DNA of 64,000 nucleotides from Lutibacter maritimus. Lineage in GTDB: Bacteria; Bacteroidota; Bacteroidia; Flavobacteriales; Flavobacteriaceae. The position numbers and the translations under genes are program-made. Positions 46,717-49,520 of the stretch are shown piece by piece (the stretch's first letter is position 1; every line of letters begins with the position of its first letter). A model generated the notes under the pieces. That model was given only the letters and a program-made list of their open reading frames with translations, was not told the origin of the DNA and did no database searches. The DNA is taken from positions 62,001-126,000 of the forward strand of contig NZ_FOZP01000002.1 in NCBI RefSeq assembly GCF_900116115.1, read 5' to 3'.

Positions 46717-47607
46717 TTATAAATCAATTAAATAGGAAATGCCAAAATTAAAATAATTTGTGTTGGTTAAGTTTGTTTCATATTCTAATTCGGAAGGTAT
46801 ATTTAGGTTATATCCAACTTCAAAATCGAAAGATTTAATGTTATATTGTAAAATAAAATTTAACTGAGTATAAATAAGCGCAAAAACATTGCTTGTTAAT
46901 TGTGCGTTTTCTGTTTCAGTTTCATAATCCAACAAATTATTTTGTACTGTTATTCCATCAATATCAATAAGTTGAGTTCCTAAAATAAAGTTTAATTGAG
47001 GTCTGAATTTTAAATTTTGGTTGTTATTTTTAAATAAATTGATGTTTGCATAACTTTTTGAAATAACCTGATATGTTGGTTCTCCTCCAAAATAATAAGA
47101 GCTCGCTACTTGGGTACCTAAACTTCTGTTTTTATTTTGCACTCCCAAACTAATACTTGCTGCACTATTGTAAAGATTGTCAAGATTATTATTTGCATAT
47201 AGGTATGCAGATAAAGAGCCGTTATATCTAAATATTTTATTTTTTCCAAAGCTTTTTCCAAAGCCAGCTGTTGCAATTGTTACATCCCAATTTGGAATAA
47301 ATTTACTATACAATATACCAGAAACACTTGCGTAAAAACCTTTGGAATGCATATAGGTTATTTGAGGTGTAAGGTTGAATTGATCTACATTAATATCACG
47401 ACCTGAAAAATATGTATTGGTATTGAAATTTACCGATACATATAAAAATTGAAGGTTAGCTAATGAGGCTACTATATCATTAAAAGATTCTTCCATTAAT
47501 AGTTCATCTAACATTTCATCTACTTCATTTGTTTTGGTTGGTAGTTCTTGCGAATTTGCAACAAGTAGTCCAGCTATATAAACTAAAATTAGAAGATATT
47601 TTTTCAT
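46717..47607 (-). CDS. Predicted outer-membrane beta-barrel protein
   Basis: 296 residues with a signal peptide (1-19, ANSQ), an acidic N-terminal stretch (DEMLDELLMEESF) and alternating hydrophobic/aromatic strands to a C-terminal FNFGISYLIDL, typical of an outer-membrane barrel. No named family. It is the last gene of the run sigma factor, predicted anti-sigma, Spy-like protein and this protein, so it may be a target of the same stress response. A weak hairpin separates it from the spy-like gene. Confidence 0.7.
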   Translation of the reverse strand: MKKYLLILVYIAGLLVANSQELPTKTNEVDEMLDELLMEESFNDIVASLANLQFLYVSVNFNTNTYFSGRDINVDQFNLTPQITYMHSKGFYASVSGILYSKFIPNWDVTIATAGFGKSFGKNKIFRYNGSLSAYLYANNNLDNLYNSAASISLGVQNKNRSLGTQVASSYYFGGEPTYQVISKSYANINLFKNNNQNLKFRPQLNFILGTQLIDIDGITVQNNLLDYETETENAQLTSNVFALIYTQLNFILQYNIKSFDFEVGYNLNIPSELEYETNLTNTNYFNFGISYLIDL

Positions 47608-47630: not shown

Positions 47631-47658
47631 AAAGTGGCCAAGTAACCTCAACCACTTT
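47631..47658 (-). terminator. Weak hairpin between spy-like and barrel genes
   Basis: 7-bp stem AAAGTGG (47631-47637) / CCACTTT (47652-47658) followed on the minus strand by a U-rich tract. It could partly stop transcription, giving more spy-like than barrel mRNA. Confidence 0.4.
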
Positions 47659-47673
47659 TTTATGATAATGAAT

Positions 47674-48165
47674 TTAATTAGAACCATTTCTATTACCTCC
47701 GCCTGAACCATTTTTTATTTTACGTTGTTCTCTTACGGTTTCTCTTAGCTCATTTCCTGTTTCGGAGCTATTATTTGCTCTAATTGACTGACGTAATTGT
47801 TGTCGTTGTTCATTTGTAATTGTATTTTTAAACTGCTCTTTTATTGCACTTACTTTCTCTTTATTTTGATTTATTAATTCTTTTTGAGCGTTGGTAAATG
47901 TGTTTCTTAATGCCTCTAGTCTTGCTTCTTTTTTAAGCTTTTGGTTTTCTAAAATGGCTAACTGCTCATCGGTAAGTGTTGCTTTAAAAGCCTCTCTGTT
48001 AGCTTTAATTAAAGCTTGTTGTTCTTTCAACAAAAGTTTTTGTTGTTCTGTTAAATTTTTCATTAACATTTGCTTATCTGCAGCATTGTTTTCTTGTGCG
48101 CTACTAACTGTAATACTTACAAGAAATACAAATACTAAAACTGTTATTAATTTTAAATTTTTCAT
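47674..48165 (-). CDS. Spy/CpxP-like periplasmic protein with four 26-residue LTxxQ repeats
   Basis: 163 residues. A signal peptide (1-23, ending SSAQ) sends it to the periplasm. LTEQQ, LTDEQ, FTNAQ and ITNEQ begin at residues 38, 64, 90 and 116, exactly 26 apart; LTxxQ is the hallmark of the Spy/CpxP stress chaperones, which have two copies. The rest is helical and rich in Lys, Glu and Gln, and the tail (GSGGGNRNGSN) is disordered. Predicted role: a helical, possibly cradle-like chaperone or binder of unfolded outer-membrane proteins. A sigma-factor promoter motif lies 35 bp upstream. Confidence 0.8.
   Translation of the reverse strand: MKNLKLITVLVFVFLVSITVSSAQENNAADKQMLMKNLTEQQKLLLKEQQALIKANREAFKATLTDEQLAILENQKLKKEARLEALRNTFTNAQKELINQNKEKVSAIKEQFKNTITNEQRQQLRQSIRANNSSETGNELRETVREQRKIKNGSGGGNRNGSN
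47743..48054 (-). repeat. Four tandem 78-bp (26-codon) repeats encoding LTxxQ units
   Basis: Units begin at codons 38, 64, 90 and 116 of the spy-like gene with no change in length. The DNA has diverged, so the array is old and length-constrained rather than a fresh expansion. Confidence 0.75.
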
Positions 48166-48200
48166 TTTTATATATTTTAATTAAATTTTACTTCCTTTTG

Positions 48201-48220
48201 AACGTTCTATTGTTTAGACC
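48201..48220 (-). promoter_or_regulatory. Predicted ECF-sigma promoter motif upstream of spy-like gene
   Basis: On the minus strand GGTCTAAAC..(6 bp)..ACGTT; 20 bp, shared at about 14 positions with the site at 49347-49366. It ends 35 bp from the ATG at 48165. It replaces the usual TAnnTTTG element, which is missing here. Confidence 0.6.
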
Positions 48221-48259
48221 TTTTATAGTTTAAAAAGTTTTAAATGAACATTATTAAAT

Positions 48260-48712
48260 TTAAAATAATTCATCCGTCATTAACTCATCTACAATGTATT
48301 CATCTAAATATTCATCAGCTAAAACATTGTCAATAAAGTTGTTTGTTAAAAATGAATCAACGTTTGCATCGTTTACAAAAAGTGAAGCAATTAATATATC
48401 ATCTTGATGAAAAGAATCAGTTAATAAATTTCCATTTTTTTGTATATTTAATGTGTCTAAAACTATTTGATTCATATCAAAATCTTTAGGAGTTTTGTAT
48501 TGCTTGTATAGTGTAAAAGCAAAAAATAATGCAAAACCTGCAGCAGCAAACCACGTTATTTTATTTTTATAAAATGTTGTTAATTTTAATTCTTTTTTTG
48601 TTGAAATCTTTGATAATATTTCATTTTTAGATTTTAAAAAATAATCATCCGGCGTTTTAAAGCCCAATTCCTTACTATGTTTTTTATTAATATTTTTATC
48701 TTTTAAATTCAT
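48260..48712 (-). CDS. Predicted anti-sigma membrane protein
   Basis: 150 residues: a basic N-terminal cytoplasmic part (1-~50), one transmembrane helix (about 52-70, TWFAAAGFALFFAFTLY) and an acidic periplasmic tail (~75-150, ending LADEYLDEYIVDELMTDELF). No zinc-binding anti-sigma motif is seen. It lies 42 bp after the ECF sigma gene in the same direction, the usual place for an anti-sigma factor; the call rests on topology and position only. Confidence 0.65.
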   Translation of the reverse strand: MNLKDKNINKKHSKELGFKTPDDYFLKSKNEILSKISTKKELKLTTFYKNKITWFAAAGFALFFAFTLYKQYKTPKDFDMNQIVLDTLNIQKNGNLLTDSFHQDDILIASLFVNDANVDSFLTNNFIDNVLADEYLDEYIVDELMTDELF

Positions 48713-48754
48713 AACTTATTATTTTTAATGAATGTCAATTATTGATTTTTTTAT

Positions 48755-49312
48755 CTAATTTTTTACAAGTAACTCTACGTTAAGCATATTTTTTTCAATG
48801 CTAGTTACAATTTTATAATAGTATGTTTTTATAGTTCCTTCGTGAATTCCTGTTATTTCTGAAATTTCACGAAATTTTAAATCATCATAATATTTCATTT
48901 GAAATATTTGCCGATCTTTCTCGGGTAATTCAGCTAAGATTCTATGTAATTTTAATTGAATTTCATCTCCTTCAAAATAAGAGTCAGATACTAAATTATC
49001 TAAATATTTTTTTTGAATATCGTCTACCGAATAATGATACTTCTTCTCTTGTTCTAAAAAACGTAACGATTCATTATAAGCTATTCGAAACATCCAAGTA
49101 GATAACGAACTCTTTTGTTGAAAATTTGGTAAACTTTTATAAACTCTTAAAAACGTATTTTGTAATACATCATTTGCATTTTCATGAGTAATTACCAATT
49201 TTCTGATGTGCCAATACAAACGCTTTTGATAAAGCTCTAGTAATTTTTTAAATGCTTCCTCTTTCTGATTTGCACTTAACAATCTACTAATAAATTCGGC
49301 TTCGCTTTTCAA
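48755..49312 (-). CDS. ECF-type RNA polymerase sigma factor
   Basis: 185 residues. Region 2 (about 18-85: LLELYQKRLYWHIRKLV, NDVLQNTFLRVYKSLPNF, STWMFRIAYN) and region 4 (about 125-178: LPEKDRQIFQMKYYDDLKFREISEITGIHEGTIKT) are both intact. Start is TTG at 49312: there is no in-frame ATG between it and the upstream stop, and the N-terminus then fits flavobacterial relatives. It heads a set with an anti-sigma, a Spy-like protein and an outer-membrane protein. A 20-bp motif 34 bp upstream is shared with the spy-like gene, so it likely activates itself. Confidence 0.93.
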   Translation of the reverse strand: MKSEAEFISRLLSANQKEEAFKKLLELYQKRLYWHIRKLVITHENANDVLQNTFLRVYKSLPNFQQKSSLSTWMFRIAYNESLRFLEQEKKYHYSVDDIQKKYLDNLVSDSYFEGDEIQLKLHRILAELPEKDRQIFQMKYYDDLKFREISEITGIHEGTIKTYYYKIVTSIEKNMLNVELLVKN

Positions 49313-49346
49313 TGTGTAATTAGTTTAAATTTTTTATCACGATTAT

Positions 49347-49366
49347 AACGTCTCTTTATTTAGACC
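49347..49366 (-). promoter_or_regulatory. Predicted ECF-sigma promoter motif upstream of the sigma gene
   Basis: Minus strand GGTCTAAAT..(6 bp)..ACGTT, same spacing as at 48201-48220; consensus on the + strand AACGTYYYWTTRTTTAGACC. It lies 34 bp from the TTG start. No TAnnTTTG element is present. Confidence 0.6.
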
Positions 49367-49520
49367 CTAAGAAATAGCAATAGTTTAAAGTTACGCACAT
49401 AAACATTAAAAGAGTGTTAAATAAGTTGCACATAATCAGTTTTTTATAAATAAAAAATAGCGAACAAACCAAAGTCATTATAAGTTGTAAATACAAAGTA
49501 AATTACAATACAAAATATTG

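Follow-up and report, generated by a model that had tools for sequence, protein, structure and literature searches.

The window, a 64,000-nucleotide stretch of the Lutibacter maritimus genome (contig NZ_FOZP01000002.1, positions 62,001 to 126,000), carries on its minus strand a cluster with genes for an ECF sigma factor, a putative anti-sigma factor, a Spy-like secreted protein and a predicted outer-membrane beta-barrel. The features of this cluster, in window coordinates, are:

49360..49386, minus strand: predicted ECF promoter of the sigma gene, AAACTATTGCTATTTCTTAGGGTCTAA; exact AAACT-N15-GGTCTAA, kept upstream of orthologues; -35 box AAACT at 49386-49382 and -10 box GGTCTAA at 49366-49360, 47 nt before the TTG
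48755..49312, minus strand: ECF sigma factor, 185 aa, TTG start; PF04542, PF08281 and TIGR02937 above cut-off
48260..48712, minus strand: putative membrane-spanning anti-sigma factor, 150 aa, assigned by position and conservation
48214..48240, minus strand: predicted ECF promoter of the Spy-like gene, AAACTTTTTAAACTATAAAAGGTCTAA; exact AAACT-N15-GGTCTAA, kept upstream of orthologues; -35 box at 48240-48236 and -10 box at 48220-48214, 48 nt before the ATG
48200..48207, no strand assigned: GAACGTTC palindrome, 6 nt after the -10 box, at or close to the point where transcription of the Spy-like gene is predicted to begin
47674..48165, minus strand: Spy-like secreted protein, 163 aa, with LTxxQ-like repeats; PF07813 found in homologues
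47631..47658, minus strand: terminator-like hairpin (predicted fold) between the Spy-like and barrel genes
46717..47607, minus strand: predicted outer-membrane beta-barrel gene, conserved as the next gene in the cluster; no separate ECF promoter

Gene content and order in related loci

We compared the same-genus orthologous loci and 52 named loci from Lutibacter, Flavivirga, Wenyingzhuangia, Ochrovirga, Aquimarina, Maribacter, Polaribacter, Nonlabens and unclassified relatives, the closest named loci being Lutibacter records with 82% identity in the sigma factor. Most counts refer to a set of 56 loci, i.e. the window locus, L122-L173, L013, L018 and L118, with L174 and L175 (Desulfobacterota, 28-29% identity) excluded; several of these loci are closely related, and locus counts do not equal independent events. 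A spy-family match is present in 44 of the 56 loci and always lies downstream of the anti-sigma gene, giving the order sigma, anti-sigma, Spy; in three of the 44, a lipoprotein gene of the regulon family described below lies between the latter two.

The window sigma factor is a two-domain ECF protein comprising regions 2 and 4 only. The 150-aa protein encoded next to it shows no Pfam or NCBIfam match, one hydrophobic segment recognised by eye and an acidic C-terminal part, and it is from gene position that we designate it a putative anti-sigma factor. In Bacteroidetes, class I anti-sigma domains are reported to adjoin only 6% of the ECFs (PMC7406223).

The assignment of the secreted protein as Spy-like is made because of its LTxxQ-like repeats and the presence of PF07813 at E<=0.01 in 10 of 26 homologues, the window protein itself reaching 11 bits against a cut-off of 24.3. 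Residues Q42, Q68, Q94 and Q120 are invariant in the alignment, and the match to CpxP (3qzc) has an E-value of only 0.85. The predicted model is all-helical with a mean pLDDT of 71.6; a structure search with this model ranked Spy (6owy) third at E 2.2 and CpxP (3itf) seventh at E 3.0, none of the matches being significant, and the structure search was dropped as an argument for a Spy fold.

PDB matches of the barrel protein include NanC, KdgM and Tsx. Following its signal peptide we observed an acidic motif resembling E[IV]D..[IL]D[ED]LF, a similar motif being present in the regulon lipoprotein (14/15 at p<=0.05; control 2/120), while the anti-sigma protein shows no clear match (18/53, L153 left out). 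The idea that barrel, lipoprotein and anti-sigma protein share this motif as a common Spy ligand was supported in part only and is not put forward, in view of the anti-sigma count and of between-family profile probabilities of at most 31%. A hairpin occupies the gap between Spy and barrel genes in 21 of 24 loci inspected by eye on predicted folds, with differing stem sequences, suggesting partial termination before the barrel gene. In the corresponding gap of L158 (Aquimarina), a very long hairpin with about 33 pairs occupies the position of the Lutibacter terminator-like hairpin.

A two-box element shared by the sigma and Spy-like genes

A preceding sequence-only reading of this DNA had reported a 20-bp motif, with AACGT as one of its boxes, in front of both the sigma and the Spy-like gene and had interpreted it as the mark of an autoregulated ECF promoter. 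The exact copies exist at 48201-48220 and 49347-49366, 35 bp from the Spy-like ATG (48165) and 34 bp from the sigma TTG (49312), respectively, and, as had been stated, neither the 213 bp preceding the sigma gene nor the 94 bp preceding the Spy-like gene contains the housekeeping element TAnnTTTG in gene sense. A genome-wide search (3.48 Mb) with AACGT-N7-TTTAGACC gave two exact matches, both being these copies, against one for the reversed-pattern control. A search of 60 genomes, i.e. the source and 59 relatives, gave 13 genomes with the 20-mer, source included; only the source has two matches, and the single matches in the 12 others lie at the Spy leader in ten cases and elsewhere in two. The full 20-mer at the sigma gene is peculiar to the source genome among the 60 searched.

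The unit common to the sigma and Spy upstream regions across the homologous loci is a different one, AAACT-N15-GGTCTAA in gene sense, which many relatives have at both genes and which reads as an RpoE-like promoter with GGTCTAA as predicted -10 and AAACT, 15 bp upstream, as predicted -35. The idea of an ECF-type promoter common to both genes stands, whereas the box assignment was wrong: the -35 box lies outside the interval reported, and AACGT is an element of the Spy leader downstream of the promoter. Conservation upstream of the orthologous genes, on which the earlier proposal had been made to depend, is found for AAACT-N15-GGTCTAA.

This conservation was quantified by a promoter matrix trained on 19 sigma promoters, the score being compared with 40 shuffles per region. 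The element beats all shuffles upstream of the sigma gene in 46/56 loci (19 of these being training rows) and upstream of Spy in 29/44 loci, none of which was used in training, as well as in 27/54 anti-sigma upstream regions; for the barrel gene this is the case in only 1/37 regions. Part of the shortfall at the sigma gene (10/56) and at Spy (15/44) is due to the use of a matrix built from close relatives on more distant loci.

The source genome contains four exact matches to AAACT-N15-GGTCTAA, of which only the sigma and Spy sites precede a gene start. For the other two, no ORF of >=50 aa begins on the same strand in the next 300 bp, which would fit the view that the two upstream regions resemble each other by chance or through a recent duplication. 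The element is, however, conserved across several genera with divergent spacers, and its copies at sigma 3' ends, described below, occur in eight registers, and we attribute practically no probability to this view. With one mismatch allowed, the source genome gave 28 matches versus 33 for the control, i.e. no excess, and a large regulon is not seen at this level.

A palindrome conserved in Spy leaders

The GAACGTTC site at 48200..48207 overlaps the 20-mer. Of the 31 Spy leaders in which a -10 could be recognised, 19, including those of Ochrovirga and Aquimarina, have it 5-7 nt downstream of the -10 box, and none of the 38 sigma leaders compared has it. Since even ACGTT is present within 20 nt in only 2/38 of these sigma leaders, the AACGT resemblance in the source sigma leader looks accidental. 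Comparison of the leaders thus places the AACGT half in the palindrome and outside the shared promoter, and identifies the 20-mer as the predicted -10 fused with a Spy-leader element that the sigma leader of the source genome happens to resemble. As a functional unit the 20-mer was rejected: among the other genomes searched it recurs at the cluster in the Spy leader only, and the palindrome is missing from the 38 sigma leaders compared.

These leaders also bear on the explanation that the shared element is the operator of a separate DNA-binding regulator. Conservation of GAACGTTC as far as Aquimarina makes a second regulator at Spy plausible, but a regulator of both genes is opposed by the lack of the palindrome in the sigma leaders and by the shared part itself, which is asymmetric and consists of two RpoE-like boxes at a fixed 15-bp spacing. 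We regard this explanation as very improbable and read the shared element as a promoter. The palindrome could possibly act as a DNA site at the transcription start or as an element of the mRNA 5' end. AGAACGTTCW was found at 11 places of the source genome (14 strand-wise rows) versus five for the control, and the palindrome as a genome-wide operator was discarded.

Promoter type, sigma clade and candidate regulon

The -35 box occurs in two types, AAACT and AAACC. A type could be assigned to the upstream promoter of 60 of the 69 sigma factors in a tree (43 AAACT, 17 AAACC). On this tree, a quick one with many weak branches, there is a single change of type, versus at least 11 changes (mean 15) in 100 label shuffles, showing that promoter and sigma factor evolve together. 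Sigma residues 84, 160 and 166 separate the two types almost completely, an exception being L018, which has alanine at 160 and is of T type. Residues 160 and 166 lie in region 4 and are candidate specificity residues for the fifth -35 base (T or C).

The source genome encodes a paralogous sigma factor (G000 contig 19), whose promoters, AAACC-N15-NGTCTWA, differ from the window type by a few bases. A pattern covering both types, AAACYWTT-N13-GTCTWA, gave seven matches in the source genome versus two for the reversed-pattern control. Two of the seven are the window sites and two belong to the paralogous sigma and anti-sigma genes; of the others, one precedes the gene of a small secreted protein, one lies 29 nt before the start of a membrane-protein gene and one has no ORF nearby. 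The element of the small secreted protein gene (L195; G000 contig 11, 162929) is of AAACC type and lies 26 nt before the ATG. By sequence this protein is possibly Spy-like; a third Spy-like gene was not accepted, as Pfam matches are sub-threshold only (Metal_resist, E 0.047). The same pattern gave 106 matches versus 40 for the control in 25 genomes of the genus and 13 versus 20 in 15 genomes outside the genus, these totals being summed by hand from the per-genome table.

A lipoprotein family is present in 15 of 37 genus genomes, the source genome not being among them. All 15 genus members have the two-box element within 150 bp (shuffles 1/1,500), and 14/15 have it by a stricter pattern allowing two mismatches (shuffles 28/1,500); eight of these promoters are of AAACT and seven of AAACC type. 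The stricter test comprised 19 lipoprotein-like loci, of which three outside the genus (L191, L193, L194) gave no ORF and a fourth (L192) did not show the element. In two Flavivirga loci and L141 the lipoprotein gene lies inside the operon between anti-sigma and Spy genes, and here neither the lipoprotein gene nor Spy has a separate element beating the shuffles. We also observed the exact element 32-38 bp before the start of a cytochrome-c-like lipoprotein gene (CYACHSV, recognised by eye) in L102, L104 and L106.

The near-identity of the paralogue promoters makes cross-recognition possible, and the promoters might be read mainly by the paralogous sigma factor or by several ECF sigma factors, resulting in cross-regulation. 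The occurrence of lipoprotein promoters of both types in related genomes, seven of 15 being AAACC, points in this direction, as do the overlapping ECF regulons suggested for Flavobacterium psychrophilum (PMC9723704). In contrast, the -35 type tracks the sigma clade with a single change, and the region 4 residues 160 and 166 segregate with the type with one exception. Cross-regulation as the main mode is thus unlikely in our assessment, and recognition of the AAACT-type promoters by the sigma factor encoded next to them is the reading we prefer.

A further copy of the element at the end of the sigma gene

In 38 of the 56 loci, a two-box element straddles or closely follows the 3' end of the sigma gene, in front of the putative anti-sigma gene. 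Controls gave 0/11,200 Markov shuffles and 0/361 other ORF ends, the anti-sigma ends having been left out of the latter because the Spy promoter sits there. The copy was also found in 8/12 further loci of distant relatives and paralogues. The paralogous sigma operon of the source genome has it, but the window sigma operon and its close relative L122 are without it.

The copy occurs in eight registers to the stop codon: counted from the end of that codon, its start lies between 27 nt upstream and 9 nt downstream. This register changed at least eight times on the sigma tree, as measured from a stop codon whose own position may have shifted. Sixteen loci share the commonest register, in which the sigma stop codon TAA forms the end of the GGTCTAA -10 box. 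Conserved C-terminal amino acids were rejected as the cause of the copy, since registers occur in each of the three reading frames and also downstream of the stop codon. L173 (same place as L012) has a lipoprotein-like gene between its sigma and anti-sigma genes; this gene and the anti-sigma gene each have their own copy, resulting in four copies in one cluster.

This anti-sigma copy in relatives is the unexpected part of our analysis. A sigma-dependent anti-sigma promoter inside a sigma gene is not described in the portion of PMC3498285 covered by a limited literature search. We favour, with moderate confidence, the view of a flavobacterial stress operon family in which each regulatory gene would have its own copy of the sigma promoter, the anti-sigma copy over or just past the sigma end acting as a built-in brake that is absent in some lineages including that of the window. 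If true, the end of the sigma gene doubles as a switch for making its own inhibitor.

Discussion

Our data support a model according to which the window encodes an autoregulated ECF stress circuit in which the sigma factor reads AAACT-N15-GGTCTAA at its own operon and at the Spy-like gene; based on the conserved elements we consider this highly probable. An envelope signal, presumably sensed in the periplasm, would free the sigma factor from its membrane-bound putative anti-sigma partner, and the freed sigma factor would read the element before its own operon and before the Spy-like gene. Given these two positions, activation is expected to produce more sigma factor, i.e. self-amplification, together with a periplasmic output if the Spy-like protein acts as a chaperone. 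In most homologous loci the 3'-end copy would provide the anti-sigma gene with a separate start that depends on the sigma factor, and should thereby add a negative feedback. The analysis provides a sequence-level promoter consensus and candidate regulon members for this ECF sigma family in Flavobacteriaceae, and the absence of the anti-sigma copy from the close clade of the window offers a natural comparison for the extra negative-feedback promoter.

Sigma-E with its RpoE/RseA pair is an autoregulated sigma/anti-sigma operon; unlike this system, the putative window anti-sigma factor has no Pfam or NCBIfam match. The CnrYXH system combines a metal-responsive ECF sigma factor, a membrane anti-sigma factor and a Spy-like periplasmic protein, and in comparison Metal_resist (PF13801) stays below cut-off in the window Spy-like protein. 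The promoter boxes resemble those of proteobacterial sigma-E, as the reported E. coli -35 box GGAACTT has AACTT in common with AAACTTT and the meningococcal -10 box TCTAA is identical to the end of GGTCTAA (PMC2893595).

Within the same taxonomic family, the SM6 ECF promoter class of Flavobacterium psychrophilum has a GT-containing -10 box, and its targets include one ECF/anti-sigma pair, both likenesses to the window (PMC9723704). Its conserved box is described as CGT, however, and the targets considered here include several T9SS components and Band-7 proteins but no Spy gene (PMC9723704). The arrangement of the cluster is also like that of CirY/CirZ-Spy of Phocaeicola vulgatus, with the order ECF sigma factor, anti-sigma factor and Spy-like protein (PMC13114119). 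In that system spy is reported as co-transcribed with cirYZ, whereas the window Spy-like gene has its own promoter copy, and the genes that come after spy may act on peptidoglycan, whereas the window has the barrel gene at this place. Deletion of the anti-sigma factor CirZ is reported to raise both cirY and spy (PMC13114119).
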